From positions 1-64,000 of the forward strand of contig NZ_ATZI01000004.1 of assembly GCF_000428125.1 (NCBI RefSeq): a stretch of DNA of 64,000 nt, read 5' to 3'. The position numbers and the translations under genes were made by a program. A model generated the notes under the pieces. That model did no database searches, was not told the origin of the DNA, and saw only the letters and a program-made list of their open reading frames with translations. Source of the DNA: Bacteroides graminisolvens DSM 19988 = JCM 15093 (GTDB lineage: Bacteria > Bacteroidota > Bacteroidia > Bacteroidales > Bacteroidaceae). Shown here piece by piece: positions 5,996 through 45,881 of the stretch (positions are counted from its first letter, which is position 1; the number at the start of each line of letters is the position of its first letter).

Positions 5996-7402
5996 CATTG
6001 TAAAAATATCAAATAAGTAGCGGAAATCAACCAGGCGAAAAAACGTCAATTGTAATATATACACCTCGACAATAAAGATTCCCTATCCAACATATACAGT
6101 TGATGAAATAAATTGGGCTGGCTATTAAGCTCTTGTGTATTCCATTGTTACTTACCTCATGCTTATTCATATATACATAGAAGCAAAGCATCCTATTCTC
6201 TGTATAAGTCAAAACCCATCATTAAGGAGCTGAGAACGGTGTCTTTGGAACTCCGTTTACTTACTTACGATAAGTAAGTAAATCCTAAAACGAGACTTGA
6301 AAAATTACCCCCATCTCACGTATACACCTCGCACCGGCAGGCACACCCTCCCTCATCTTTTTATTTTTATCACACCATTGTATTTCAATTAGTTAGACGG
6401 TTTACTTTGTACAAAAGTAAACCTCTTTTCTCTGTATATTCAAAATTTGAAAGTAAAAAATAATTTTCTTATTCAATTGTCGTTTCTTAACAATTCTAAT
6501 ACATTGATAATCAGATAGTTGAATAATCTTTCATTTTTTCATACACTCATAATCATACCCAAAACCAAAAAACAGAAAGAAAAATATTTTTTCAAAAATC
6601 AATCTTTTTCTTTTTAAGTTGATATTCAACTACTTACAGCCTCCCCCTCGCGTGCGTGTGTGTTCAAGTCTATTTTTGACGTATGCAAAGAGCCACACCG
6701 AAAAAAAAATATTCAAAAAGTTTGGAGATTGAAAAAACGGTGTTATACTTAATCATGTCGAACGGCAAACGAAACAAGCCGAACGGCAAACAAAAAACAA
6801 TATCAAAAAACGAATTAAAAAATAGTTTTAGGAAAAAAAGAAAAACAGACCGCAAAAGCGAGAAACAAAAGAGTTTTTTTATTGGAAACATTTTTTTGCA
6901 CTCTGGAAAAGCAAAAAACGTCCGTTCGCTTTGGAGCGATTAAAGAGGGTGTTAAACAACCACACCGCACGGAACTACAAACCAATGTAGCAAGTAGGAA
7001 CGGCAAAGTACGTGTACTTTGACCGCATACACAAAACGCAATAATTTGGGAGCGTGAGTTGTATGGAAACAAGGTAGTGAAAAAATAGTGCCATAAGTCT
7101 GCCCAGTTGCAGCCGGAGTAAAGTTCACAATGCGGGAAAAACAATCCGCACGGAGCTTGAGAAAGAGTGTATGCCAATGTTATGCACTGAAATCACCAGC
7201 CGCCCACCGCCTTGCTGTTAGCTGCCGCACTGGAAAAGGTGCGGGACGTGCCAAAGAAACACCTTTGCGAAATTGGAGTACCAAAGGGTTTGCCACGATG
7301 CAGAATAGTATCTATTTGCTGTCTGAACACTGCAAATATAACGCTTTATTCTTGTGGAGCAAACTATGTGGCACGTTTTTGAGTGAGGCATATTGAAAAA
7401 AT
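5996..7402. other. Long non-coding stretch between head block and accessory region
   Basis: No convincing gene is visible here. Open frames are lysine-rich low-complexity stretches. It holds the motif TATACACCTCG twice (about 6058 and 6321), a perfect 12-bp inverted repeat (6256-6282), very A/T-rich DNA from 6360 to 6640, and a candidate -7 box TATTTTTG at 6671-6678. Its change in base composition suggests a junction between modules. I do not see an origin or oriT I could name. Confidence 0.6.
6256..6282. repeat. Perfect 12-bp inverted repeat
   Basis: TTTACTTACTTA and TAAGTAAGTAAA are separated by three bases (CGA). No T tract follows, so a protein-binding site is more likely than a terminator. 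Confidence 0.7.
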
Positions 7403-7440: not shown

Positions 7441-7572
7441 ATGGGCTGACGGTAAGGTTGCCGTGTTTTGCTATACTCTGGCAAAATGTGGGGTTCGAGT
7501 CCCTGCCTGCCCTCAATATGCACTATTGCATAGGTTCAAACAATTCATTAACAATCTAAAAATTAAAAGATT
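7441..7572 (+). other. tRNA-like 3' half (T-arm motif), not a complete tRNA
   Basis: At about 7488-7519 the motif GGGGTTCGAGTCCCTG looks like a tRNA T-arm followed by an acceptor-like CCTGCCC. The upstream bases do not give a matching 5' acceptor strand or a 5-bp/7-nt anticodon arm. It may be a tRNA fragment left by integration, or chance. Confidence 0.25.
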
Positions 7573-9225: not shown

Positions 9226-9268
9226 AAAAAAGTAATCGGGCAACTACTCTGAATGAAACCAATAAAAT
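9226..9268 (+). repeat. Duplicated 43-nt leader, copy 1
   Basis: It shares AAAAAAGTAAT, CTACTCTGAAT and AAACCAATAAAAT, in the same order and spacing, with 15309-15351 ahead of the reverse transcriptase gene. Here it ends 8 nt before the ATG at 9277, and there 7 nt before the ATG at 15359. Confidence 0.75.
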
Positions 9269-9276
9269 CATAAGAT

Positions 9277-9672
9277 ATGAAGCAAAGAACCTTTCACGGT
9301 GGCGACCTCAACAAAGCCACCAGCCTGTTTGAATATGGTCTGCTTGTCAGATATGTGCCCAACGTAAAAAGCTGGCAATGTGTCTATAAATCCGGCACGA
9401 ACAGATACAGCTATGGTTGGATTAGCGAAATTGCTCTCAACGAAATCTTCACGAAAGACTGGGGCAAAAAACATCTCAAAGTCTTTATGGAAAACTGTTG
9501 CAGCTATTGGGACGAATGGGTATTGTTCCCGATGCAGCACAAGATAGATGATTTCATCGCCTATTTCGGTAGCCTTGAATTGTTCGGCGAGGATTATAGC
9601 GGAGGATATACCGCAAAAGAGATTTGCCGGAAGTTACACCTCAAATTCGACATCGACTATGAGCAGGCTTAA
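9277..9672 (+). CDS. Hypothetical protein, first gene of a long operon
   Basis: 131 aa, rich in aromatic residues (W, Y, F). No domain is recognised, although its size and aromatic content fit accessory genes of Bacteroides mobile elements. It follows a terminator and a leader duplicated ahead of the RT gene. It overlaps the next gene by 14 bp. It appears to start a run of plus-strand genes with very short gaps that continues to 16.6 kb. Confidence 0.65.
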   Translation: MKQRTFHGGDLNKATSLFEYGLLVRYVPNVKSWQCVYKSGTNRYSYGWISEIALNEIFTKDWGKKHLKVFMENCCSYWDEWVLFPMQHKIDDFIAYFGSLELFGEDYSGGYTAKEICRKLHLKFDIDYEQA

Positions 9673-9940
9673 TTACTACTACCTCGACTACTTGCATAAG
9701 GAAGTCGGGCTGACTCGGAAAGATGTTGATTCAGTCCCCGAATCCGGTAGAGCTGATGATGCGTGTTCTGTTATTGCCGACAAAAAGTATGTGCAAAAAC
9801 AACTGGCAGAAGTTTCTGACGAGCAGTTATTCAAGGCTGTAAAAAGCCTCTGTGATGATCCGGAATTACCAACTCGAAAAGATGCTATCATGTACATTGT
9901 CTGGATGGTAGCTCTATCAATTAAGGAGGAAATAATATGA
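9659..9940 (+). CDS. Hypothetical protein
   Basis: 93 aa from the ATG at 9659 (MSRLNYYYLDYLHKEVG), chosen because the longer frame from 9548 lies inside the upstream gene. Helical and acidic; family unknown. It overlaps both neighbours (14 bp and 4 bp). Confidence 0.6.
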   Translation: MSRLNYYYLDYLHKEVGLTRKDVDSVPESGRADDACSVIADKKYVQKQLAEVSDEQLFKAVKSLCDDPELPTRKDAIMYIVWMVALSIKEEII

Positions 9941-15358: not shown

Positions 15359-16624
15359 ATGGCAGATAAAATTTTGCATATGTTTTTCGACATCGACAGA
15401 TGGACGAAAGCAATTGAGAAAGGAGTGTTCAAAGACATTCGCAAAGACCAACTCATACGGCTGACTGATGAGCATACCAGACTGGCGATTGCCGATGCAA
15501 TGCTGAAAGGCAAGTATGAAATCTCTCCACCCCATACTGCACTGATACCAAAAGATAATGGCGAGTTCCGCACGGTTTACGTCAATGAACCTATGGATCG
15601 TGTAATACTGAGTATCGCCAACGATTTGCTGTTCGACCTGATGCCAGAAATGCTTCATAAGTCTTGTAAATCATATCAAACAGGTATTGGATGCGGCAAG
15701 GTTGTAAAAGAGGTAAGTCTTCAAATCACGAATGCTCCCAGTGGTGACTGTCTGGGTTGGAAGTCCGACCTGAGCAAATACTTCGACAGTGTGCCGCTTC
15801 GATATATCGACGAGGCATTTGACAATGTGGAAACAAAATATGGCCATTCAGCCCTGATTGACGTATTGAGAAAATATTACCACTGCGACTTATACTTCGA
15901 TGAAGAGAACAATTTCAAAAGTAAGTTCCAGTCGCTGAAACAAGGTTGCGCCGTGGCAAGTTGGCTGGCAGATGTTCTCTTATACGACCTCGATGATGAG
16001 TTGTCTCAACTGAATGGCTTCTATGTACGCTACTCAGACGATATGCTTTTTATCGGAGATGATTACGAGAAAGCAATGACCGTACTTCAACAACGACTTA
16101 GTGAGATGTCAATGGCTCTCAACCCTAAAAAAGTGGAATATCTAACGGCTGACAAGTGGTTCAAATTTCTGGGGTTTAGCATCAAAGGCAATATGATTTC
16201 TCTATCGTCCAGCCGCATCAAAACATTCCAGAAAGAAATTGAGTCACGAACTATCCGTAAGCCTGGTATCACTCTGGCAAAAGCTATTAACTCCGTGAAT
16301 CGGTATCTCTATAAAGGTAACGGTGAATTTAGCTGGGCAACACAAATACTACCTGTATGCAACGTCAGAAAAGATATAGATGAACTAAACAAGTTTGTGA
16401 TGGATTGCCTAAGAGCCATCGAGACAAGAAAACGCAAGATAGGCGGTCTGGGATATATCAAGACAAAGGGCGATGGCTGTATTGTCCGAGGTTTGGGGCG
16501 GAATGTAAAAGCAAACCGCAATAAGACCAACAATAACATATCAGGCTATCTGACAATTGGTTGTATGCAGAATGCCATACTTACAAGCCATACTGTGTAT
16601 AACACATTGGTTTCATCATTATAG
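15359..16624 (+). CDS. Stand-alone reverse transcriptase beside a structured-RNA array
   Basis: 421 aa from the ATG at 15359, chosen by alignment of its leader with the duplicated copy (a longer form could start at 15350). RT-fold motifs in order: motif A at ~D137 (WKSDLSKYFDSV), motif B QGCAVAS (195-201), catalytic YSDD (225-228), LNPKKVEYL (254-262), FLGF (270-273). A C-terminal region of ~150 residues could be a thumb. There is no endonuclease, primase, protease or maturase zinc domain. The motif-B form (QGxxxAS) and YSDD box do not let me place it in group II introns, retrons or DGRs with certainty. Five structured units start nine bases after its stop, so they are probably co-transcribed and may be its templates or cofactors. 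Confidence 0.9.
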   Translation: MADKILHMFFDIDRWTKAIEKGVFKDIRKDQLIRLTDEHTRLAIADAMLKGKYEISPPHTALIPKDNGEFRTVYVNEPMDRVILSIANDLLFDLMPEMLHKSCKSYQTGIGCGKVVKEVSLQITNAPSGDCLGWKSDLSKYFDSVPLRYIDEAFDNVETKYGHSALIDVLRKYYHCDLYFDEENNFKSKFQSLKQGCAVASWLADVLLYDLDDELSQLNGFYVRYSDDMLFIGDDYEKAMTVLQQRLSEMSMALNPKKVEYLTADKWFKFLGFSIKGNMISLSSSRIKTFQKEIESRTIRKPGITLAKAINSVNRYLYKGNGEFSWATQILPVCNVRKDIDELNKFVMDCLRAIETRKRKIGGLGYIKTKGDGCIVRGLGRNVKANRNKTNNNISGYLTIGCMQNAILTSHTVYNTLVSSL

Positions 16625-16632
16625 GAATGCCG

Positions 16633-16791
16633 AGCACACGGTTAATGAATGAAGAGCGAGAATTTAATGTTACAGGTATGTATACCAGAACCCATATTAC
16701 GATTCACCGGTCTAGCAACCGGTGAATCCCATCTTGGTTCTGGAATTACCTGTAAATATCAAGAGATTAAAGAGATGTGTCGCTTGCTTGA
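16633..16791 (+). ncRNA. Structured array unit 1
   Basis: Box GCACA (16634-16638), AATTTA (16661-16666), then a long hairpin 16670-16755. Its stems are 9 bp (TTACAGGTA/TACCTGTAA), 8 bp (CCAGAACC/GGTTCTGG) and 11 bp (GATTCACCGGT/ACCGGTGAATC, loop CTAGCA). The 3' block follows: ATCAA (16758), TAAAG (16768), ATGTGTC (16775), TTGA (16788). GCACA pairs with TGTGT (16776-16780) with one G-U. Begins nine bases after the RT stop. Confidence 0.8.
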
Positions 16792-16811
16792 CATTCACAC
16801 AGAGATACTGA

Positions 16812-16969
16812 AACACATCAGTGAAGTTCAAGGAACAACAATTTACCAACCCGCGTACGGAACCAGCTCCTACAGAGTCTTGAAGGCCGTTCATAAACCG
16901 CCTTCAGACTCTTCTGAGCTGGAAACGCGGGTAACATCAAGAGTATAAAGCAATGTGTCGTTGTTATGA
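16812..16969 (+). ncRNA. Structured array unit 2
   Basis: Box ACACA (16813-16817), AAGGA (16830), AATTTA (16840-16845), hairpin 16849-16932. Stems: ACCCGCGT/ACGCGGGT, CCAGCTC/GAGCTGG, and AGAGTCT(T)GAAGGC paired with GCCTTCAGACTCT. 3' block: ATCAA (16936), TAAAG (16946), ATGTGTC (16953), ATGA (16966). ACACA pairs perfectly with TGTGT (16954-16958). Confidence 0.8.
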
Positions 16970-16985
16970 GAACTTTCTTATTCTT

Positions 16986-17140
16986 AGCACAAAACGTGAT
17001 TCAAGGGAATAATATTTAGTGTATCGTGCTCAATAAGCCTCCGCTGCGGCGTCGTGATCCCTACCGTTATACGACGCCGCTGCTTAGGCTTCCAGCCACG
17101 CTAAACATCAAATTCATAGAGGAATGTGCCAATATTCTGA
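16986..17140 (+). ncRNA. Structured array unit 3
   Basis: Box GCACA (16987-16991), AAGGG (17003), ATTTA (17014), then a hairpin whose outer parts are TTTAG/CTAAA and CGTG/CACG. The inner stems are AAGCCT/AGGCTT and the 10-bp GCGGCGTCGT/ACGACGCCGC. 3' block: ATCAA (17107), TAGAG (17117), ATGTGCC (17124), CTGA (17137). GCACA pairs with TGTGC (17125-17129), a compensatory change relative to unit 2. Confidence 0.8.
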
Positions 17141-17161
17141 GAATCACAACAAAAAGAACTT

Positions 17162-17319
17162 AGCACAAAGTGAAAGCCCAGATTAGGAAATTTAATGGTG
17201 CAGCTCTGCAACTGCTGGAACCATACGTCATCTCCGTATATCTTCCGATATGACGTGATGGGGCCAGCAGAATAGCTGCTCATATCAAAAACAGTAAAGT
17301 TATGTGCCATCCTAATTGA
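17162..17319 (+). ncRNA. Structured array unit 4
   Basis: Box GCACA (17163-17167), TAGGA (17184), AATTTA (17189-17194), hairpin 17200-17279. Stems: GCAGCT/AGCTGC, CTGCTGG/CCAGCAG and ACGTCAT/ATGACGT. 3' block: ATCAA (17284), TAAAG (17295), ATGTGCC (17302), TTGA (17316). GCACA pairs with TGTGC (17303-17307). Confidence 0.8.
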
Positions 17320-17344
17320 GACTTTCTTTTAAAAGAGAAATGGT

Positions 17345-17483
17345 AACGCAACCGATTAATGCACAAGGAGTCGAATTTAACATACAGTATTATACCTGGT
17401 CCCTGAACCTGGTTATAACCGAGGTTCAGGACCAGGAGAAACTGTATTTATCAGAATGATAAAGTAATGCGTCAGCGATTTGA
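17345..17483 (+). ncRNA. Structured array unit 5
   Basis: Box ACGCA (17346-17350), AAGGA (17365), AATTTA (17374-17379), hairpin 17382-17447. Stems: ATACAGT/ACTGTAT and a 15-bp stem CCTGGTCC(C)TGAACCT with AGGTTCAGGACCAGG. 3' block: ATCAG (17450), TAAAG (17460), ATGCGTC (17467), TTGA (17480). ACGCA pairs with TGCGT (17468-17472): both sides differ from the other units and still pair. Confidence 0.8.
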
Positions 17484-17510
17484 ATGCATCTAATTTATAA
17501 TTGAGGAAAC

Positions 17511-17969
17511 ATGAATAATATCTATCAAGCATCTATCCAAGCTGTCGAGGACGGTGCAAACTTCAGAATTGATTTCCAGTCCCGAAGTCTAAAACTGAAC
17601 GGCAAGTTTATCATACAAGACGGCAGATATGAAGGTGAATTGGGGGTGACGGATTGCAACGAAGATGAGTTTTTCGCAAATGTGGAAGAACTGTATTCTC
17701 GGTATAAAAACTCAGTTCCATCAGAGCGCAGCGAAAGCAAGCCGCACCAATATTTCATGGCAGTGCCCGAAAGGAGTTTAAGTGATGATGCTATGTTGTA
17801 TGGTGAACGTCGGGATAAAGCACAAATTGAACTCGAATTATATGTTCTCTGCCAGATTATCAACGGGTTTAAATGGAACCCAGAAAAGATGGGCAAATGG
17901 TTCTGGAAAAGTAAGGTCGATAAAGATTTGGTGATACTCAAAAACTGGATAGAGACTAACTGTAATTAA
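17511..17969 (+). CDS. Hypothetical protein directly after the RNA array
   Basis: 152 aa, no recognised family. Acidic N-terminal half (DCNEDEFFANVEELYSRYKN) and a W-rich C-terminal segment (FKWNPEKMGKWFWKSKVD) that looks like a globular end. It begins 28 nt after the last conserved base of unit 5 and is followed 22 bp later by the 357-aa gene. Position alone makes it a candidate partner of the RT system. Confidence 0.6.
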   Translation: MNNIYQASIQAVEDGANFRIDFQSRSLKLNGKFIIQDGRYEGELGVTDCNEDEFFANVEELYSRYKNSVPSERSESKPHQYFMAVPERSLSDDAMLYGERRDKAQIELELYVLCQIINGFKWNPEKMGKWFWKSKVDKDLVILKNWIETNCN

Positions 17970-17991: not shown

Positions 17992-19065
17992 ATGAAAAAA
18001 GAGACAAAAATGTTGTGTCCCAAGTGCGGCGCAAAGCCCGAAATTGCAAAGGGCGACTTTACTGCTGTAATCGCAATTGTAGGCAAGGGTTTAGGTTTGG
18101 AGGTAACAGCAACGGAACATAGCCCCTCAACGAAACTGCCCAAAACAGCACAGGAACGTATTGATGCACTTCGCAGTGCCGGCGTGGATGTAAATAATCT
18201 ATTTGCCATGAAGGGGGCCAACGGTGGCGAGTATATCGGTTCAAACAAGGATGGTGTACTTTCCATGCTTGATGACAACGATCCTATTTTCAGTCACATC
18301 ATTGAACAAGGAACAGTCCCTAACCGCCGTCTGTTCAGACGCTGGGTTATGGCTCAAATGTTTCACATGATGTCTTATACACCTCATCGTTCAAAAGAAC
18401 CGGTAGGTGTGACGAACATGATTCATCGTTTGGGTTATGATTATCAGTGGAAAATGTTAATGGATGAGTTATACGCTCAGATGAAAATGTCGGAAAGGGA
18501 TGCCGTAAATTTCACAGATCGTAATCGTTGGTTTAACACTGACGTTGTTATGGCTATGGCGAATGATTATATTGTACAGCTAAAAGAGCGTGTGAATAAC
18601 CTGAATGTGAAAAAATGTAAGGGAGTACCTTACAAGCGCATTAATAGCCAGAATATTTTCGTGTCAGATTTGCAAAGTAAATTGTATAACCCGTTATACG
18701 CAGCAATAACACATATCAAACAAGCAAAGAACGCTTCCCAACTATACACTGCGGCTAAAAAGTTTAATGAAATGCGTATCAATATGCGATGTGACACACC
18801 CCAGAGCAAAGCATGGGTAGATGCCTACAAAGGTTCTGGTGCATTCTTTACAATGCAGAACCTCGTTCGTTTCCATAACTGTGTTGCCATTGATGATGCA
18901 GGAAATCGTCTGGACAAATTTCAGTCTCTTGCATTTCTATCACCCAAAGCAGAAATGTACAAGAATGGTGAAGGATGGCGACTGTTTGCTGTCTTGAAAA
19001 AGATGCTGGCGGACAACAATATTGATATCAAGAAAAAGGTCTCAGAGTGGCGTAAGAGAAAGTAA
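17992..19065 (+). CDS. Hypothetical protein between array and unit 6
   Basis: 357 aa, not recognised. It opens with a single CPKCGAKP knuckle followed by a low-complexity linker, then a segment KTAQERIDALRSAGVDVNN and a large basic, helical domain (~90-350) with R/K-rich patches such as RRLFRRWVMAQMFHMM and KVSEWRKRK at the end. The basic character would fit nucleic-acid binding (inference). It lies between the five-unit array and the solo sixth unit, which starts 13 nt after its stop. Confidence 0.6.
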   Translation: MKKETKMLCPKCGAKPEIAKGDFTAVIAIVGKGLGLEVTATEHSPSTKLPKTAQERIDALRSAGVDVNNLFAMKGANGGEYIGSNKDGVLSMLDDNDPIFSHIIEQGTVPNRRLFRRWVMAQMFHMMSYTPHRSKEPVGVTNMIHRLGYDYQWKMLMDELYAQMKMSERDAVNFTDRNRWFNTDVVMAMANDYIVQLKERVNNLNVKKCKGVPYKRINSQNIFVSDLQSKLYNPLYAAITHIKQAKNASQLYTAAKKFNEMRINMRCDTPQSKAWVDAYKGSGAFFTMQNLVRFHNCVAIDDAGNRLDKFQSLAFLSPKAEMYKNGEGWRLFAVLKKMLADNNIDIKKKVSEWRKRK

Positions 19066-19078
19066 ACAATTTAATTGC

Positions 19079-19216
19079 TTGGCAGGCACGATGTGGTGGA
19101 TCAGTAAATTTAGTTGTCGCCCCTACATTGATGAGGAGCCCACTGCAAATGCCAGGGCTCCTCTATCAAGTAGGTGGCCTCACATCAAACAAGTAAAGAA
19201 ATGCCCCTATTGGTAA
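19079..19216 (+). ncRNA. Structured unit 6, dispersed copy
   Basis: Box GGCA (19081-19084), GTGGA (19096), AATTTA (19107-19112), then a hairpin with stems CCTAC/GTAGG, TTGAT/ATCAA and a 9-bp GAGGAGCCC/GGGCTCCTC. 3' block: ATCAA (19184), TAAAG (19194), ATGCCCC (19201). GGCA pairs with TGCC (19202-19205), and the distance from the 5' box to AATTTA (23 nt) is as in the tandem units. It fills the gap between the 357-aa and 115-aa genes. Confidence 0.7.
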
Positions 19217-19244
19217 TCACATCATTATTAAACAGAATCAATAC

Positions 19245-22202: not shown

Positions 22203-22793
22203 ATGAGCAGAGACAAAGGAAAACTAACAACAGCAGACTACTTGTCGATAGAAGACTTCAATCGATTGGTAGATGGACTGCATAATGATGGACTATATAT
22301 GTGGGAGCTCTATTGCAGGTTATCCTTTTGTACTGCTTTACGAGCCTCAGATGTATTAACCCTCACATGGCAGGATATACTTAACCGAGAATTTCTCGAT
22401 AAGACTGAGAAGAAAACCCAGAAAGGAAGACGGATCACATTTAACTCCTCCGTCCAACAAAAGATCAAAGAGCTATACACTCTACAAGGCGAACCCGATA
22501 AAAAAGGTTCGCCTTTTTTAAACCCAAAAACTCAAACAGTCTATTCTTTGGAGCATATCAACCGATTGCTCAAAAAGTTTAGGGTGAGATACAGATTACC
22601 GATCAAGGCATTCTCCACACACACTTTTCGAAAGACTTTCGGACGATATGTATACGAAAGCAATGGTCGAAGTGCCGAGTCTCTAATATTGCTCAACTCA
22701 ATATTCAGGCACTCAAGCATAGATATTACAAAGGTCTACATCGGACTTCGACAGGCTGAGATAGACAAAGTTTTTAACTCAATCAAATTTTAG
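22203..22793 (+). CDS. Compact tyrosine recombinase (catalytic domain only)
   Basis: 196 aa. The catalytic set of tyrosine recombinases is visible: R47 (ALRAS), K74 or nearby, H140-x-x-R143 (HTFRKTFG), H170 (FRHSS) and Y179 (VYIGL). The usual N-terminal core-binding (SAM-like) domain of integrases is missing, since intact family members have about 300-400 aa. It could be a resolvase-type or cassette-type enzyme, or a truncated integrase. It is embedded in a collinear gene string rather than at an obvious element end. I see no core site next to it. Confidence 0.8.
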   Translation: MSRDKGKLTTADYLSIEDFNRLVDGLHNDGLYMWELYCRLSFCTALRASDVLTLTWQDILNREFLDKTEKKTQKGRRITFNSSVQQKIKELYTLQGEPDKKGSPFLNPKTQTVYSLEHINRLLKKFRVRYRLPIKAFSTHTFRKTFGRYVYESNGRSAESLILLNSIFRHSSIDITKVYIGLRQAEIDKVFNSIKF

Positions 22794-37424: not shown

Positions 37425-38348
37425 CTACCTTTGCTGTATTGGCATATTTATAGTTTTCCAAAGGATCTCATTCTCCCATTCTGCAGGAAATCCCATTGCC
37501 TTTATATCTACCATAGGATAACGGTTCAGAAGCTCCTTGAATCTCGGAATAAAAGAATGATTCGGGTTGACTGTGTTAAGCAGATAATTAATCATGCTTA
37601 ATATAAAATACACTTGTTGTGTTCCACTTGCAGGAATTGGGATAAAGGTATTATGAGGAGAACGAGGCATTAGCGGCCGCACTCCTAACACTTTATTCCA
37701 TAATCTGCTATGATGAGCACATATATTTCTGATGTATACAATGCTGTGAAGCCATGAGGAAAAGACACTGTCAGCCAGTCCGAAGTAGGCAGCAATCTTA
37801 CGTTTGGCCTGTCCGGGCAACAGATTACTGTATAGGATAGACAATGTGCCGAATGAGGCAATTTCCATGATCATCCAGCTTGGCGGATAGTGGTCGGAAT
37901 ACTTTGCACGGAAAGCTGTTATGAACACTTCATCACTTCTCTGATGTTCTTCATCTATCTTTACCAATATCTTGGCATGGCGTACTGGATTTGAAAACAA
38001 TGAAGCATCCTCAAACCAGTTGGCACTGTATATGGAAGAGAGAATATATGCTGTCTGCGTGCGCACGGCTACCTCTATCTTTTCAAGTTCGGCGATGATA
38101 AGCTTCCGAAGTTCACTGTCAAACTTGTAAAGTGAATATGCCGTTTCAAAGGTACTTTTCGGACGGAATATATGATTCTGCTTATCTATCAGCAGAGGAT
38201 ACCAATAACCGCTCAATCGGTAATAGCTGATGTTCTTTAAAAGATGAAGAGCCTTCGTCTCATCTGCAAAGGCCAATCCACGCTGTTTTAGCAACTCAAT
38301 CTGATCAGTAAAGGATGTAAGCTGCTTGGGGTATGGAATTTTTGTCAT
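37425..38348 (-). CDS. Abi_2-family abortive infection protein
   Basis: 307 aa, near the usual length for Abi_2 (AbiD/AbiF) proteins of phage abortive infection. The N-terminal part (KPLTSFTDQIELLKQRGL-like, here KQLTSFTDQIELLKQRGL) and NISYYRLSGYWYPLL are family marks. A HEPN-like RNICAH...HSRLWN (R-x4-H) in the C-terminal third suggests an RNase. The gene is first in its minus-strand unit, and its own promoter and a long leader hairpin lie just upstream. Confidence 0.85.
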   Translation of the reverse strand: MTKIPYPKQLTSFTDQIELLKQRGLAFADETKALHLLKNISYYRLSGYWYPLLIDKQNHIFRPKSTFETAYSLYKFDSELRKLIIAELEKIEVAVRTQTAYILSSIYSANWFEDASLFSNPVRHAKILVKIDEEHQRSDEVFITAFRAKYSDHYPPSWMIMEIASFGTLSILYSNLLPGQAKRKIAAYFGLADSVFSSWLHSIVYIRNICAHHSRLWNKVLGVRPLMPRSPHNTFIPIPASGTQQVYFILSMINYLLNTVNPNHSFIPRFKELLNRYPMVDIKAMGFPAEWENEILWKTINMPIQQR

Positions 38349-38887: not shown

Positions 38888-39691
38888 TTACCATGTTATG
38901 ACCTTATTCACTATTGCTTGTTGCTCGCTGGCAGTTCGGCGCAGATATATTCGGGTTGTTTCTATGCTTTCATGCCCCATGAGATCGGCGAGAAGAGATA
39001 TATCATTGAATTTTTCGAGAAAGTTCTTGGCGTATCTGTGGCGGAAGGAATGCGGATAAACAACTCTCGGATTGAGACCATACTTCACGGCAAAGCTCTT
39101 CAACTGTTGTGCAATGCCTCTTGTCGTTATCCGTTCCCCGAAGCGATTGAGAAATAGATAACCACTATCCCTATTGTTTTTGTTAAGCCATTCCTGAGCT
39201 TCTTCTTGCAATTTTTTGGGGATGAAAAGCCGGCGTATCTTGCCACCTTTGGTGTAAATGTCATAATGACCCACGTTTACGTGTTCCACTTTCAGTTGCA
39301 CCAATTCGCTAACTCTTGCACCCGTAGCGGCAAGGAAGCGAACAACAAAATACCATTCCAGATTATTTTCTTTCTTTAGCTTGTTCTTCAGGAATGTGTA
39401 ATCAGCGTTACTGATGACATTTTCCAGATAGGTGCGTTGCTGCACCTTTACCGATTTCAGACACAATTGTGGTTTGCGCATGAAATCCAGATACTTGTTC
39501 AATGCCTGGATGCGTAAGTTTACGGTTTTAGGCTTGAATGTTTCAATGAGATACGCTTTGTAAAGCACCAAGTTTGCCTTAGTTAGCTCTTTGTACTGAG
39601 ATTTGAAATCGTTCACTGCATAGATGTAGGCAGTGATAGTATTCTCGGCCATATTCGATAGCACGAGAAAATCTTTGAATTTTTCAACCAT
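38888..39691 (-). CDS. Tyrosine recombinase, likely invertase of the adjacent R-M locus
   Basis: 267 aa from the ATG at 39691 (MVEKFKDFLVLSNMAE), a normal start for this family; the frame is open to 39742. N-terminal core-binding domain (~1-85), then catalytic residues R (ARVSEL), K (TKGGKIR), H-x-x-R (HSFRHRYAK), H (GHESI) and the nucleophile Y (RIYLR). The gene lies 85 bp outside the left 36-bp inverted repeat, the usual place for shufflon-type recombinases in Bacteroides. Confidence 0.9.
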   Translation of the reverse strand: MVEKFKDFLVLSNMAENTITAYIYAVNDFKSQYKELTKANLVLYKAYLIETFKPKTVNLRIQALNKYLDFMRKPQLCLKSVKVQQRTYLENVISNADYTFLKNKLKKENNLEWYFVVRFLAATGARVSELVQLKVEHVNVGHYDIYTKGGKIRRLFIPKKLQEEAQEWLNKNNRDSGYLFLNRFGERITTRGIAQQLKSFAVKYGLNPRVVYPHSFRHRYAKNFLEKFNDISLLADLMGHESIETTRIYLRRTASEQQAIVNKVITW

Positions 39692-39776
39692 GATGTTGCG
39701 TTTGTTATAAAGTTGTCTATCATATATAATAATCATGGTCATAAGCTATATGTTTTGCAGTCCTACCTTCTCGTAT

Positions 39777-41963: not shown

Positions 41964-44900
41964 TCAGCCTAAAGGCTTGATGATGGACTCGATATATTCA
42001 CGCTCGTTTCGTGTAAGGGCATATAAATTATATAGTTCCTCGTCAGTCCAATCTTTTGCAAAATCTTGAAGTGGGACAAAGCGAAAAACATCCTTGCTAA
42101 TCATAATGGACGTCATAGATTGTAGCATCAAGAAACGAACAAATTTAGTGGAAAGATAATGCATTAGATGCTCAGCTTTCTCTTCTTTCTCAAATTGTCC
42201 AATACAAATATAGGTTTCAGCGCAAATTTCTCCAGCCCGCATAACCTTCATTGTAGCTGGAATGATCTGATAACTGCCATCAACATTAGGCTTGTTTCCA
42301 CCAGACATCGCCCTCGTTGTAATAACATTGTACGTGTCTATTGCATCCTTACATCTAGATACCTTTGAACGAGCAACATATCCAACGCCATCACTATGAA
42401 TAAAGCGAATACTGTCCTTGAATGGTTCAGATTCGCCTCTTATATATGTTCGGAAGCCAAAGGGGTTGGACGGAAGAACTAAAGATGAAAGGCTTTTACT
42501 ATTGGATAGGTTAGTTTTGCGGATAATACTAATAGACAAGTTAGACCTCACAAATACTGGATATTCGTTCAACTTTCTTTCCATCTTGTTACGTTGACCT
42601 CTAATAACATTGACGATATGGCACAAGCCCTTGTGCGTATCGCTCCATAGAAAATAGTTAATGCCACCACTTATTATGACCGTTGGAAAACATTCCTTAG
42701 AATCGGCATAATCAATAATTTCCACCATACGATTATCATTCAACATTTCATCACGATATTCGTTAAGACCACGCCCACCAGCGAACCAGCGTGATGGGGT
42801 TATCATTGATATATAATGAGGATTGAGTTTCTTTGATAATGTGACGAAGTGTTGATATACAGGCAACGCACTTGCGCTGTTTCCTCCATCCATTACTTGG
42901 TATGGAGGATTTCCAATAACTGCATCCAGCTTCATGTTGTCAGTTTCTTTTAGATTCCAGAATTTCTTTCCATTGCGGAAGGTGTTTACTACGAGGTCAG
43001 AGTACTGGGTTATGTTTTCGATTAAGTTCTTATAATACTTAGCATTCACAGTTGTGTCACGGAAGCCAGCCAAGGTACGACGTGTGATACAGCGAGCCAT
43101 CGGGGTCTTGCAAATGACAAGAATGTTGTTTTCAATGGTCAAGTCCCAGAGCTGCATGGCAAAGGCATGCCCTATCTCGCCATACTTTGCCTTGACAGTT
43201 TCTACTCTGGAACGATAGATGTTGTATGCCACATACAACGGGTAGAGACCACTCTTTGAGTTGATTTCAAGAATATGACTTTCAGGACGGAATACATTCC
43301 GTGTCACTTCTCCACGATCCACATAGCGTGGAACGTCGAGAACAGTCTTAAACTCTTCGTCATAGAAGCAATATCCACCGAGACAATCACTCATGTGCAT
43401 ATTGACCACACGCCAAGGTGTGAGAACCGTTTCCTTGTCAGGGTTGCGGAAGGTGTTGAAAATTCCGGCTATACGTTCAATCCGTTGCTCAATAGTAAAC
43501 TTGTCAGCAATACGTGCCATGGCACGTATGCGCTTTCCCGCTTCACGAAACACATCCTGCTCGTAGAAACGCTTGAAGTTTTCAAAGATTTCTTTGGTAA
43601 CGCCCCTTGGCATGAACTCATCCCATGACTGATCATCAATGAGCGTAGAGAAGTTGTTGAGTGTTATCTCTTCATCTTCATTAGTAAGATCAGCACCGAA
43701 TATCAGCAATGGCATTCGGATGGATATACCACGAAGTATGCTAATGGCCTCTTTCCGTTGGTCGGTACGCTGGTTTAGTTCGTCAAGACGAGCTTGTTCT
43801 TCAGGAGTGCGTTCACGTTTGAGCTTTTTCTCCAAACGTTCCTTTTCTTCATATTCCTCATTGGTAAATCCCTGCTTGTTTACGTTAATGTCGTCAGAAT
43901 TCGCCATCGCTTTTGTCTTTCCAATCTTCACTTTGAGGTCTTTGAAAGCAGCAAGGTCAATGTCGGTCAACTTCAAAAGTTCATCACTATAGAGTGCTCC
44001 ATCCTCGAAGCCGCATTGTACTACCTTTTCAATCTGAGCTTTCTTTAATTGTCCCATCATTGTCTTCACATCGTATGGCTTCATCTGACTACCCTCAATA
44101 GATATAATCGGACAGAAGTTCAGAAAGTCGCCTAGTGCACGTCTATCTTCGTCAGTAGTCTTTCCTACCTTGGATGATACTTTCGCCACTTCTGCGAGTA
44201 CACGAAGTGTACGATCAGGTGCAAAGTCGAAAGCGTAACACTGTTCCTTTATCCGTCCTTTATGCGTGAATGGTGTCTGTACACGGAATATTGTCTGCAT
44301 GTACTGTGCAGCTGACGTGCTATAAGAACCTGTCATCATAAATACGGCAGTCCACGGTTTGATGCTTACGCCGGTTGTCAAGCGTCCGCAAGACAAAGTA
44401 ATTGTATATGTTTGGTCGGGATCGGGACCGATGGCTTTATTGACCATCTGGAGTGCATCGACGCTTTCCTCATCCTGGTCGCCGTCACCAGCCACATTGA
44501 CGATTTCAAAATTGCCGAAAACAGGATGTGTCTTGAGTTTTGCACTCAACGCTCTTGCAGACTTAACGCCAGGGATTACCCATAATGTATGGCGGAATAT
44601 GCGTCTGTAGTTATCATTGGAATAAGGATAAAGGCTATCCTTGTCGTCCTTGCAGAGCAGAGTAAGGAATTTGTTAATATCCTTTTCGTGGATGAATGTG
44701 TCATCATCCTTTGTGCGGAAAAACTCTCGGAAGTTGAAAGCCTTTTCATCGTCTGAGTAGTCGCTCATCAGCGTACCAAGGTCATAGGTATAGATATTGA
44801 TTGCTGGCAGCGACTCATAGGGATTGGGGTCGCCCATGTGGAGCAAATCCCATTCGATTTTTGCCTTTTGCTCCATTATATAGTCCCATGTAAATATTTC

Positions 44901-45881
44901 ATCTTCTGAATAATCATCAAGAAGATTGAATGGTGTGCCAGACAAGCGTAGTACCTTAGTGTTCTCACCTGTCAATTCAGCGATGACCGTCTTGCCAAGT
45001 TCGGTTAGTGTTCCCTCATGAGCTTCATCTACGATAAGATAATCCCATGTAGTGCAGAATATTTCATTATTCTTATCAAACTTACCACCGATAATTTCAG
45101 AGCCACGCATATCCTGCATGGAGGCGAAATATACATACTTGTCGCCTTTCTCGGCAAGGTGTTCAAGTGATTTAAAATCTTCTCCCTTTGTTCGTGAGCC
45201 ATAATGATAGTCGGGGCGGTCGCAGAATATCTTCCCGAAATCCTCAAACCATCCTTCATCAACCACTGGTCGGTGGGTGACGATGATGGTGCGCTTCATT
45301 GCCATGTCTTTTGCCACACGAAGAGCGCATAATGTTTTACCAAAGCGCATCTTTGCGTTCCAAAGCATCCGGTTATTGTGACGGAATTGCTTCTTTGTCT
45401 TTTCCACGGCAGCATCTTGTTCGGGGCGCAACACGATAGACATTTGTATTTGGCCGATGTCACCTGGATGAAGGCTCGTTTGCCCGTGCTTTACAGCGGT
45501 AATGGCTTTCTTAACCATTTCAAGATTACAGCAATACCATTCATTACTGCCCTTTACTGTCTCGAACACTTTTTTCTTTATCCCAGAACGTTCCAATACG
45601 CTATGTACCTGTTTATCATTGAAGGAGTGAGCTGTACCCCCCTTGATGTACAATGTCAATTCAGTATATAGCAATTGGTATGCAATGCCTGCAGTCTTCG
45701 TATATTGGTCTATACGTTTTCGGGCAGCAACATTTAGTGACTCACTATTAGGAGATGGTAAATCACCATCGTCCTCGTCTAAGGTGGTTTCGCCAATCTT
45801 CAGGCAGTCTTTGTGCCATTCGTCACTGATGGCAAAGACATATATCAACCGAGATTTCAAAGAAGATTCAAATGTTGCCAT
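41964..45881 (-). CDS. GIY-YIG nuclease / helicase / N6-adenine methyltransferase R-M protein
   Basis: 1305 aa. Domains in order: a GIY-YIG (T5orf172-like) nuclease at ~10-130 (LIYVFAISD, LKIGETT, RKRIDQY, SNEWY); a helicase motor (MRFGKT Walker A ~178-183, IVDEAH ~283-288); a linker; and from ~947 a methyltransferase part with motif IV NPPY (~987-990) and a target-recognition region to the end. The AdoMet-binding motif I is not apparent here but is suggested in the 332-aa neighbour. Such single-chain enzymes cut and methylate and move along DNA. Its C-terminal third can be replaced by inversion. The next gene upstream is separated by 3 bp. Confidence 0.85.
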   Translation of the reverse strand: MATFESSLKSRLIYVFAISDEWHKDCLKIGETTLDEDDGDLPSPNSESLNVAARKRIDQYTKTAGIAYQLLYTELTLYIKGGTAHSFNDKQVHSVLERSGIKKKVFETVKGSNEWYCCNLEMVKKAITAVKHGQTSLHPGDIGQIQMSIVLRPEQDAAVEKTKKQFRHNNRMLWNAKMRFGKTLCALRVAKDMAMKRTIIVTHRPVVDEGWFEDFGKIFCDRPDYHYGSRTKGEDFKSLEHLAEKGDKYVYFASMQDMRGSEIIGGKFDKNNEIFCTTWDYLIVDEAHEGTLTELGKTVIAELTGENTKVLRLSGTPFNLLDDYSEDEIFTWDYIMEQKAKIEWDLLHMGDPNPYESLPAINIYTYDLGTLMSDYSDDEKAFNFREFFRTKDDDTFIHEKDINKFLTLLCKDDKDSLYPYSNDNYRRIFRHTLWVIPGVKSARALSAKLKTHPVFGNFEIVNVAGDGDQDEESVDALQMVNKAIGPDPDQTYTITLSCGRLTTGVSIKPWTAVFMMTGSYSTSAAQYMQTIFRVQTPFTHKGRIKEQCYAFDFAPDRTLRVLAEVAKVSSKVGKTTDEDRRALGDFLNFCPIISIEGSQMKPYDVKTMMGQLKKAQIEKVVQCGFEDGALYSDELLKLTDIDLAAFKDLKVKIGKTKAMANSDDINVNKQGFTNEEYEEKERLEKKLKRERTPEEQARLDELNQRTDQRKEAISILRGISIRMPLLIFGADLTNEDEEITLNNFSTLIDDQSWDEFMPRGVTKEIFENFKRFYEQDVFREAGKRIRAMARIADKFTIEQRIERIAGIFNTFRNPDKETVLTPWRVVNMHMSDCLGGYCFYDEEFKTVLDVPRYVDRGEVTRNVFRPESHILEINSKSGLYPLYVAYNIYRSRVETVKAKYGEIGHAFAMQLWDLTIENNILVICKTPMARCITRRTLAGFRDTTVNAKYYKNLIENITQYSDLVVNTFRNGKKFWNLKETDNMKLDAVIGNPPYQVMDGGNSASALPVYQHFVTLSKKLNPHYISMITPSRWFAGGRGLNEYRDEMLNDNRMVEIIDYADSKECFPTVIISGGINYFLWSDTHKGLCHIVNVIRGQRNKMERKLNEYPVFVRSNLSISIIRKTNLSNSKSLSSLVLPSNPFGFRTYIRGESEPFKDSIRFIHSDGVGYVARSKVSRCKDAIDTYNVITTRAMSGGNKPNVDGSYQIIPATMKVMRAGEICAETYICIGQFEKEEKAEHLMHYLSTKFVRFLMLQSMTSIMISKDVFRFVPLQDFAKDWTDEELYNLYALTRNEREYIESIIKPLG
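43006..43041 (-). repeat. 36-bp inverted repeat, right copy (inside the gene)
   Basis: Reverse complement of 39777-39812; encodes the start of the variable third of the protein. Inversion of the ~3.2 kb between the repeats would swap the expressed end for cassette 1. Confidence 0.9.

Follow-up and report, generated by a model that had tools for sequence, protein, structure and literature searches.

The window analysed here is a 64,000-nt stretch of Bacteroides graminisolvens DSM 19988 (contig NZ_ATZI01000004.1, positions 1 to 64,000), and our subject is an operon within it in which a reverse transcriptase (RT) gene is followed by five RNA units in tandem, by the genes for RTas346 and RTas337, and then by a sixth unit (Table 1). 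The RT carries the YSDD catalytic motif and the sequence QGCAVAS, as the original prediction had said, and is recognised as an RT by both PADLOC and Pfam. It covers positions 1-420 of the 420 in the RT_UG27 profile, with the alignment beginning at RT residue 4, which is the second methionine, at 15359. All 28 of the RT relatives that were scanned match this profile, and YSDD is kept in 28 of 28 aligned relatives. The next-best PADLOC RT profiles for the window RT are UG26 (E 3.1e-35), UG17 (6.6e-26) and Drt9 (2.1e-23), each of which is also matched by all 28 scanned relatives. UG17 is the same as DRT10 according to PMC12632851; UG26 is closer to the window RT than UG17 or Drt9 and, as far as we have seen, appears to be uncharacterised.

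The two companion proteins are filed by PADLOC under DRT (defence-associated reverse transcriptase). RTas337 is mainly helical in its AlphaFold2 (AF2) model and many of its members have an N-terminal CPxCG motif, while RTas346 is fused to the RT in a single reading frame in three of the 28 aligned relatives (L030, L043 and L060). The adjacency of the three genes, as judged from their sequences, assigns the system to the UG27 RT class with its PADLOC companions. The original prediction had seen the array but had not named these two proteins as parts of the system, and it had missed the pseudoknot described below.

Table 1. Components of the UG27 operon in the window (R1 and R2 are covariance models)
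Feature	Coordinates	Strand	Support	Remarks
UG27-class RT, 424 aa	15350..16624	+	PADLOC RT_UG27 E 1e-236; Pfam RVT_1 E 1.8e-21
RNA unit 1	16629..16800	+	R1 66.0 bits, E 2.4e-11	Mini-hairpin CCG-AGCACA-CGG; basal stem TTACAGGTA/TACCTGTAA; pseudoknot GCACA x TGTGT
RNA unit 2	16808..16978	+	R1 77.9 bits, E 5.1e-14	Basal stem ACCCGCGT/ACGCGGGT
RNA unit 3	16982..17149	+	R1 48.9 bits, E 1.7e-7	TAGAG replaces TAAAG; R2 60.4 bits (unit 3 frame in R2 training set)
RNA unit 4	17158..17327	+	R1 62.9 bits, E 1.3e-10	Basal stem GCAGCT/AGCTGC; pseudoknot GCACA x TGTGC
RNA unit 5	17341..17492	+	R1 64.0 bits, E 7e-11	Basal stem ATACAGT/ACTGTAT; pseudoknot ACGCA x TGCGT
RTas346, 152 aa	17511..17969	+	PADLOC E 6.6e-71; AF2 pLDDT 91
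RTas337, 357 aa	17992..19065	+	PADLOC E 9.4e-157; AF2 pLDDT 78
RNA unit 6 (trailing, after RTas337)	19081..19228	+	R1 31.3 bits, E 0.0016 (in training set)	Mini-hairpin from 19076; loop pairing TGGCA x TGCCC

A conserved RNA frame

The units were located with R1, a covariance model trained on 20 units after excision of the variable hairpin. Its training set (A2) took in five of the six window units; unit 3 was left out and is nevertheless found at E 1.7e-7. Five structured units do follow the RT, as had been predicted, and they pair beyond the shuffled and slid controls given below; their lengths are 152-172 nt by R1 rather than the 166-185 nt first proposed, and with spacers of 3-13 nt they occupy nearly all, not the whole, of the gap that ends at 17511. 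Unit-like sequence was also seen by eye 3' of RTas337 in many relatives, some of it diverged.

Read from its 5' end, the shared frame consists of a mini-hairpin, P0 (whose loop reads, for example, AGCACA), P1a, an internal loop (AAGG opposite UGA), P1b and a UUYA box; then come the long hairpin, a linker of the form AUC-RAA-NNNN-UAAAG, the sequence UGUGC and the 3' strands that complete first P1b and then P1a. The P0 loop pairs with UGUGC to form a pseudoknot, which the covariance model does not include. We examined pairing in two alignments, A3 (125 R1 matches giving 120 distinct rows from 35 loci) and A9 (57 distinct rows), both of which are fitted to the stems of the model but not to the pseudoknot. 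In A3, 85.3% of stem cells are paired as against 55.4% after shuffling, a value reached by none of 500 shuffles; the shuffle test is inflated by kinship among the sequences, whereas sliding the partners by 1-3 columns preserves that kinship and leaves 27-48% of cells paired and a covariation score of at most 0.16, down from 0.724. A9 gave a similar picture (86.6% paired; 45.3% shuffled, 34-44% slid). By helix, pairing in A3 is 90.1% in P1a, 85.1% in P0, 81.9% in P1b and 75.3% in the first five pairs of the hairpin. The number of pairs changed on both sides, 26 as against 25.1 in shuffles (144 of 500 as high), does not discriminate, while further pair types number 107 as against 98.1 (1 of 500 as high). 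The pseudoknot is paired in 97.8% of A3 cells, and each of its five pairs has cells changed on both sides (92 in total); in A9 the figure is 98.5%, with 58 such cells, compared with 82.9% when shuffled and 1-72% when slid. Such covariation in the frame points to a function as RNA, whichever template the RT uses. By these sequence comparisons the window RT is accompanied by a conserved structured RNA encoded in cis, as are the class 2 UG enzymes DRT9 and DRT10.

The single-stranded linker between the hairpin and the pseudoknot is 18 nt long in 94 of 120 units and 19 nt in the other 26, and this near-constant length fits the main rival to the reading favoured below: that the RT would copy the linker, in the manner of DRT9 and DRT10, into short or repeated complementary DNA (cDNA), with the long hairpin a mere template boundary like SL5 in DRT10. 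The proposal gains from the fact that no characterised RT profile is closer than UG17/DRT10 and Drt9, and from a mean longest linker repeat of 3.58 nt that none of 300 column permutations reached (control mean 3.37 nt). An A-B-A'-like repeat of at least 4 nt is present in 43% of units as against 36% of controls, a small excess that unit kinship may have inflated; 85-95% of DRT10 RNAs are reported to have the pattern, by another criterion, in PMC12632851. According to the same paper, the template loops of DRT10 are poorly conserved and DRT9 has a conserved poly-U template; the fixed positions of the linker here are highly conserved and it contains no run of U. Copying of the linker also leaves unexplained why each unit keeps a hairpin sequence of its own, and we regard it as somewhat unlikely.

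Association of the array with the reverse transcriptase

A scan of both strands of 72 sources (1.04 Mb) with R1 gave 194 matches at E<=0.1, all of them 3' of the RT and on its strand (by reading; the 125 used in A3 were confirmed by script). They lie on the plus strand except in L066-L068, where the RT is also on the minus strand. These sources are partly redundant, containing near-duplicates, and some held R1 training units. A second group of 55 sources, of which 12 recur from the first set and some are duplicates, gave 74 matches, all in sense with the RT; 70 are within 1.5 kb of its stop codon and the remaining four, at 2.1-2.7 kb, are at the place expected of a trailing unit. Among 297 Bacteroidales genomes the RT profile has matches at E<=0.001 in 116, but strong ones (E<1e-200) in only eight, at nine places. 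The same eight genomes have RTas346 (nine places) and RTas337 (nine places and one fragment). R1 found units in seven of the eight and nowhere in the remaining 289 genomes, and the eighth, G203, yielded two units when its locus, L070, was searched directly. The original prediction had expected an excess of such matches beside homologues of the RT, and across the 297 genomes and the 72 plus 55 sources it held. Co-occurrence, covariation and a conserved layout together support a tie between the RNA array and this RT.

The layout itself is widely kept. Of the 61 loci L003-L063, a partly redundant set, 60 have the RT, RTas346 and RTas337 by tblastn; the exception, L061, is cut inside the RT. The gap between RT and RTas346 is 177-1627 nt in 40 loci, giving room for 1 to about 9 units. 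Expressed in units of 170 nt, the gap comes to within 0.2 of a whole number in 26 of the 40, compared with 16 expected, but periods of 210 and 220 score nearly as well and the count of units therefore rests on model matches and on reading. Both companion genes lie 5' of the RT in L029, and in L030 and L043 unit-like sequence stands between the fused RT-RTas346 frame and RTas337. The RTas337 frame is interrupted by an early stop at L016:10844-11941, where the RT and array are present, and it has one stop (TAG) in G018:C12.

Relatives of the RT were found at 42 loci in viral contigs, and another search gave 107 matches, of which 80 were retained; two of the viral contigs (L003 and L004) have an identical RT. 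A further 17 loci are in genomes, and we take the organisms named in their titles to be Bacteroidales in every case. The RT of Bacteroides neonati MS4 is 100% identical to that of the window. The isolated Bacteroides phage BS-TP1, whose host is B. salyersiae BG8, has the system with four R1 units, and its first 50 kb are also annotated with portal, tape measure, DNA polymerase and SbcCD-like proteins. The operon resides in phages and phage-like elements of gut bacteria, and its presence in an isolated phage makes the system testable now. BS-TP1 also has a second RT beside a four-helix-bundle protein (L182:26168-28151), a pair that, as annotated, resembles a diversity-generating retroelement (DGR).

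Cargo-like hairpins and a possible mechanism

Hairpins within one locus are as unlike one another as had been predicted: their mean identity is 0.506 as against 0.483 for shuffled sequences, in 176 pairs whose frames are 0.59 alike. Grouping by sequence divided the 120 hairpins into 47 clusters, the larger of which, on reading, bring together units from the same position in different arrays. When hairpin orthologues were defined from the frame alone (972 reciprocal pairs), their identity was 0.88 for RTs that are 95-100% identical, 0.83 for 85-95% and 0.71 for 78-85%, while 4-fold sites had 0.87, 0.59 and 0.43 in these three classes; the two baselines are unequal, at about 0.5 for aligned hairpins and about 0.28 for 4-fold sites, and after adjustment for them the hairpin excess is, by our reckoning, about twofold at 78-85% and absent at 95-100%. 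Below 78% RT identity the hairpins fall to 0.53-0.50, the level of unrelated hairpins (0.495). Compensatory changes are seen at 17 of 43 pairs in the unit-4 family, frame included, and at 13 of 43 in the unit-2 family. In the former (six sequences) both-side changes occur at 0 of 16 basal and 7 of 9 apical pairs, and in the latter (ten sequences) compensation is seen in the second stem and at the tip, with the upper stem mostly fixed; the two families differ, so no one rule governs which part of the hairpin is fixed. In ten pairs of units the apical part is swapped over a kept basal stem and a similar frame, although three of the seven displayed are deletions of the tip. On the whole, these comparisons suggest that the hairpin behaves as exchangeable cargo in a constant frame, kept by position among close relatives and replaced among distant ones.

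Some individual hairpins deserve mention. L056:8440-8580 and L017:9946-10118 have identical frames and differ by the loss of 32 nt at the hairpin tip, beside GCCGGCGC repeats. The words TAACCAG (or its complement) and GAGATGA recur in the arms of five and seven of the 47 clusters, respectively, where the top word in shuffles reaches about three, and may be a trace of common descent.

The units need not be templates. They could be scaffold, guide or protein-binding RNAs, with the DNA made by the RT either untemplated or templated by the host. The covariation of the frame signifies RNA function irrespective of any template, and the sequence-fixed basal stems of the unit-4 family could bind distinct partners. 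Exact hairpin matches of at least 12 nt elsewhere in the same element occur for 27 of 120 hairpins as against 11.4 expected from shuffles, yet they are of chance size: the longest is 14 nt and shuffles give up to 16 (these were plain shuffles, and related hairpins were counted repeatedly). Unit 1 of the window has no match in phage records better than E 2, the L052 array gives, besides its own system, two matches of E 0.8 and 3, and the window array has no plasmid match. Hairpin turnover between close relatives is slow, unlike that of spacers. The original prediction had called the units templates or guides of the RT; the tie to the RT is upheld, guides are disfavoured by the want of long target matches and by this slow turnover, and templates remain plausible. 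Overall, we consider a non-template role unlikely.

Whether pairing in the hairpin matters as RNA or as DNA can be approached by counting G.U and A.C pairs flanked by Watson-Crick pairs, which we did in 199 units (156 distinct hairpins, 68 loci). Frame helices have 5.8% G.U and 1.1% A.C, compared with 1.6% and 0.7% in the hairpins; in the basal half of the hairpin the two are equal, at 0.93% each (13 and 13). The frame-hairpin difference in G.U has a 95% confidence interval of 2.5-6.2 points when bootstrapped by locus. A low G.U content with basal equality of G.U and A.C fits pairing that is relevant in the complementary strand, as if the hairpin were copied, and we lean towards the hairpin pairing being important in both strands. 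That equality would also suit hairpins that are DNA sites for recombination, replication or transposition, their RNA being incidental, as would the long inverted repeats, which are nearly perfect in L038. The frame speaks against such a role, with its RNA-like, G.U-tolerant stems and covarying pseudoknot, as does the finding that every unit match is in sense with the RT and none lies away from it; we judge DNA sites to be very improbable. The L038 array (9234-9852) has two units whose near-perfect inverted repeats, roughly 28-30 bp by eye, are more regular than those of other loci.

The reading that we favour, at a probability of about 0.45, is that the UG27 RT uses the shared frame as its recognition element and reverse-transcribes the hairpin specific to each unit, so that one array yields a series of different DNA hairpins. 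In its favour stand the association of the units with the RT, the covarying pseudoknot, hairpins that are kept by position and show compensatory changes, the low G.U content and the RT-RTas346 fusions; in addition, the nearest characterised RT profiles, DRT10 and DRT9, belong to systems whose RNA templates are encoded in cis (PMC12632851). Sequence evidence supports the operon, the frame (including the covariation of its stems and pseudoknot), the link to the RT and the cargo-like behaviour of the hairpins; for transcription, binding, priming, template choice and the function of the product we infer the following. The units would be transcribed and then bound by the RT, and RTas346 would be a bound subunit of the RT complex, as the RT-RTas346 fusions of some relatives suggest. 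DNA synthesis would begin near the conserved 3' boxes and end at the 5' UUYA box. Such hairpin DNAs might act as baits or decoys that draw off DNA-binding proteins, whether these come from competing phages or from the host, and RTas337 would be a partner or effector. In its fullest form, which we hold to be rather doubtful, this would be a multiplexed retron-like machine in which one phage RT and up to about nine RNAs produce a panel of DNA hairpins, in effect a library of decoys that could be programmed against several rivals or host factors simultaneously.

Several observations weigh against copying of the hairpin. R1 has matches in 34 of the 55 other sources but none in 21, and of 18 of these negatives that were searched with R2, 12 were negative again. 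Where the RTs are 95-100% identical, 5% of frame-matched pairs already have unlike hairpins (identity below 0.6), a share that is 14% at 85-95% and 19% at 78-85% RT identity. The apical half of the hairpin has 31 G.U and 7 A.C pairs, an RNA-like ratio; the bootstrap interval for the difference in GU/AC ratio, -0.2 to 10.0, includes zero; and sequence conservation rather than a function as DNA may lie behind the low G.U content. The motifs of retron RTs, NAxxH and VTG, are effectively lacking, being found in 0 and 2 of the 28 RT relatives. Finally, in PMC12632851 the DRT10 and DRT9 relatives copy a short single-stranded loop beside a stem-loop and not the stem-loop itself.

Related systems and other features of the window

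All three proteins correspond to PADLOC's UG27 entries, at the E values in Table 1. These entries list proteins only. The original prediction knew of no described family with this layout: the RT does belong to one, RT_UG27, but the array has no Rfam family, with nothing at the gathering threshold and, at E<=1, two chance microRNA models only. Searches of open-access papers for UG27 and for RT-RNA arrays brought up no account of the array, although an earlier report in subscription papers is possible. The proteins were already known as PADLOC names.

DRT10 and DRT9 resemble the window system in having a related RT and a structured non-coding RNA (ncRNA) encoded in cis, with a central stem and a stem-loop, which in DRT10 is followed by a 20-nt template loop. 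The DRT10 systems described in PMC12632851 have one ncRNA per locus, whereas the window has an array of units. DRT10 also has a SLATT-domain partner; neither companion gene (17511-17969 and 17992-19065) matched any Pfam family at E<=0.01, SLATT included. DRT2 likewise has an RT adjoining a pseudoknotted ncRNA, and there the template region of a single RNA gives rise to a repetitive gene (PMC12039810), as opposed to several units in tandem here. No ORF (open reading frame) of the array is among the 14 widest-spread ORF families listed.

Retrons, too, combine an RT with a cis-encoded ncRNA that is partly copied. They have a long variable hairpin within a conserved frame; they differ in that an operon of the window type could hold as many as about nine RNA units. 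The RT motif of DGRs, [ILV]GxxxSQ, is in none of the 28 RT relatives, and the window has no Rfam group II intron match at gathering.

The RT-ncRNA systems in the literature examined have one RNA per enzyme, and an interchangeable array would be the RT counterpart of a guide array. If our reading is true, one enzyme makes many defined DNAs and the operon offers a naturally evolved scaffold for the multiplexed production of DNA inside cells. It would also be a first way into a large family: 4656 proteins match the window RT at E<=0.001, other RT classes included, and 519 match the RTas346 profile.

Elsewhere in the window an Rfam Bacteroidales-2 RNA (391.5 bits; 6863-7251, minus strand) lies beside a tRNA-Ser gene (anticodon act; 7443-7514, plus strand) that may mark the edge of an integrated element. 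Two tyrosine recombinase genes (Phage_integrase) are 16 kb apart, at 22203-22793 (plus), where the product is short at 196 aa, and 38888-39742 (minus); several larger genes scanned between them had no Pfam or PHROG match. An Abi_2 protein (37425-38348, minus) and an Eco57I/ResIII helicase-methylase (41964-45881, minus) are further defence-like genes.

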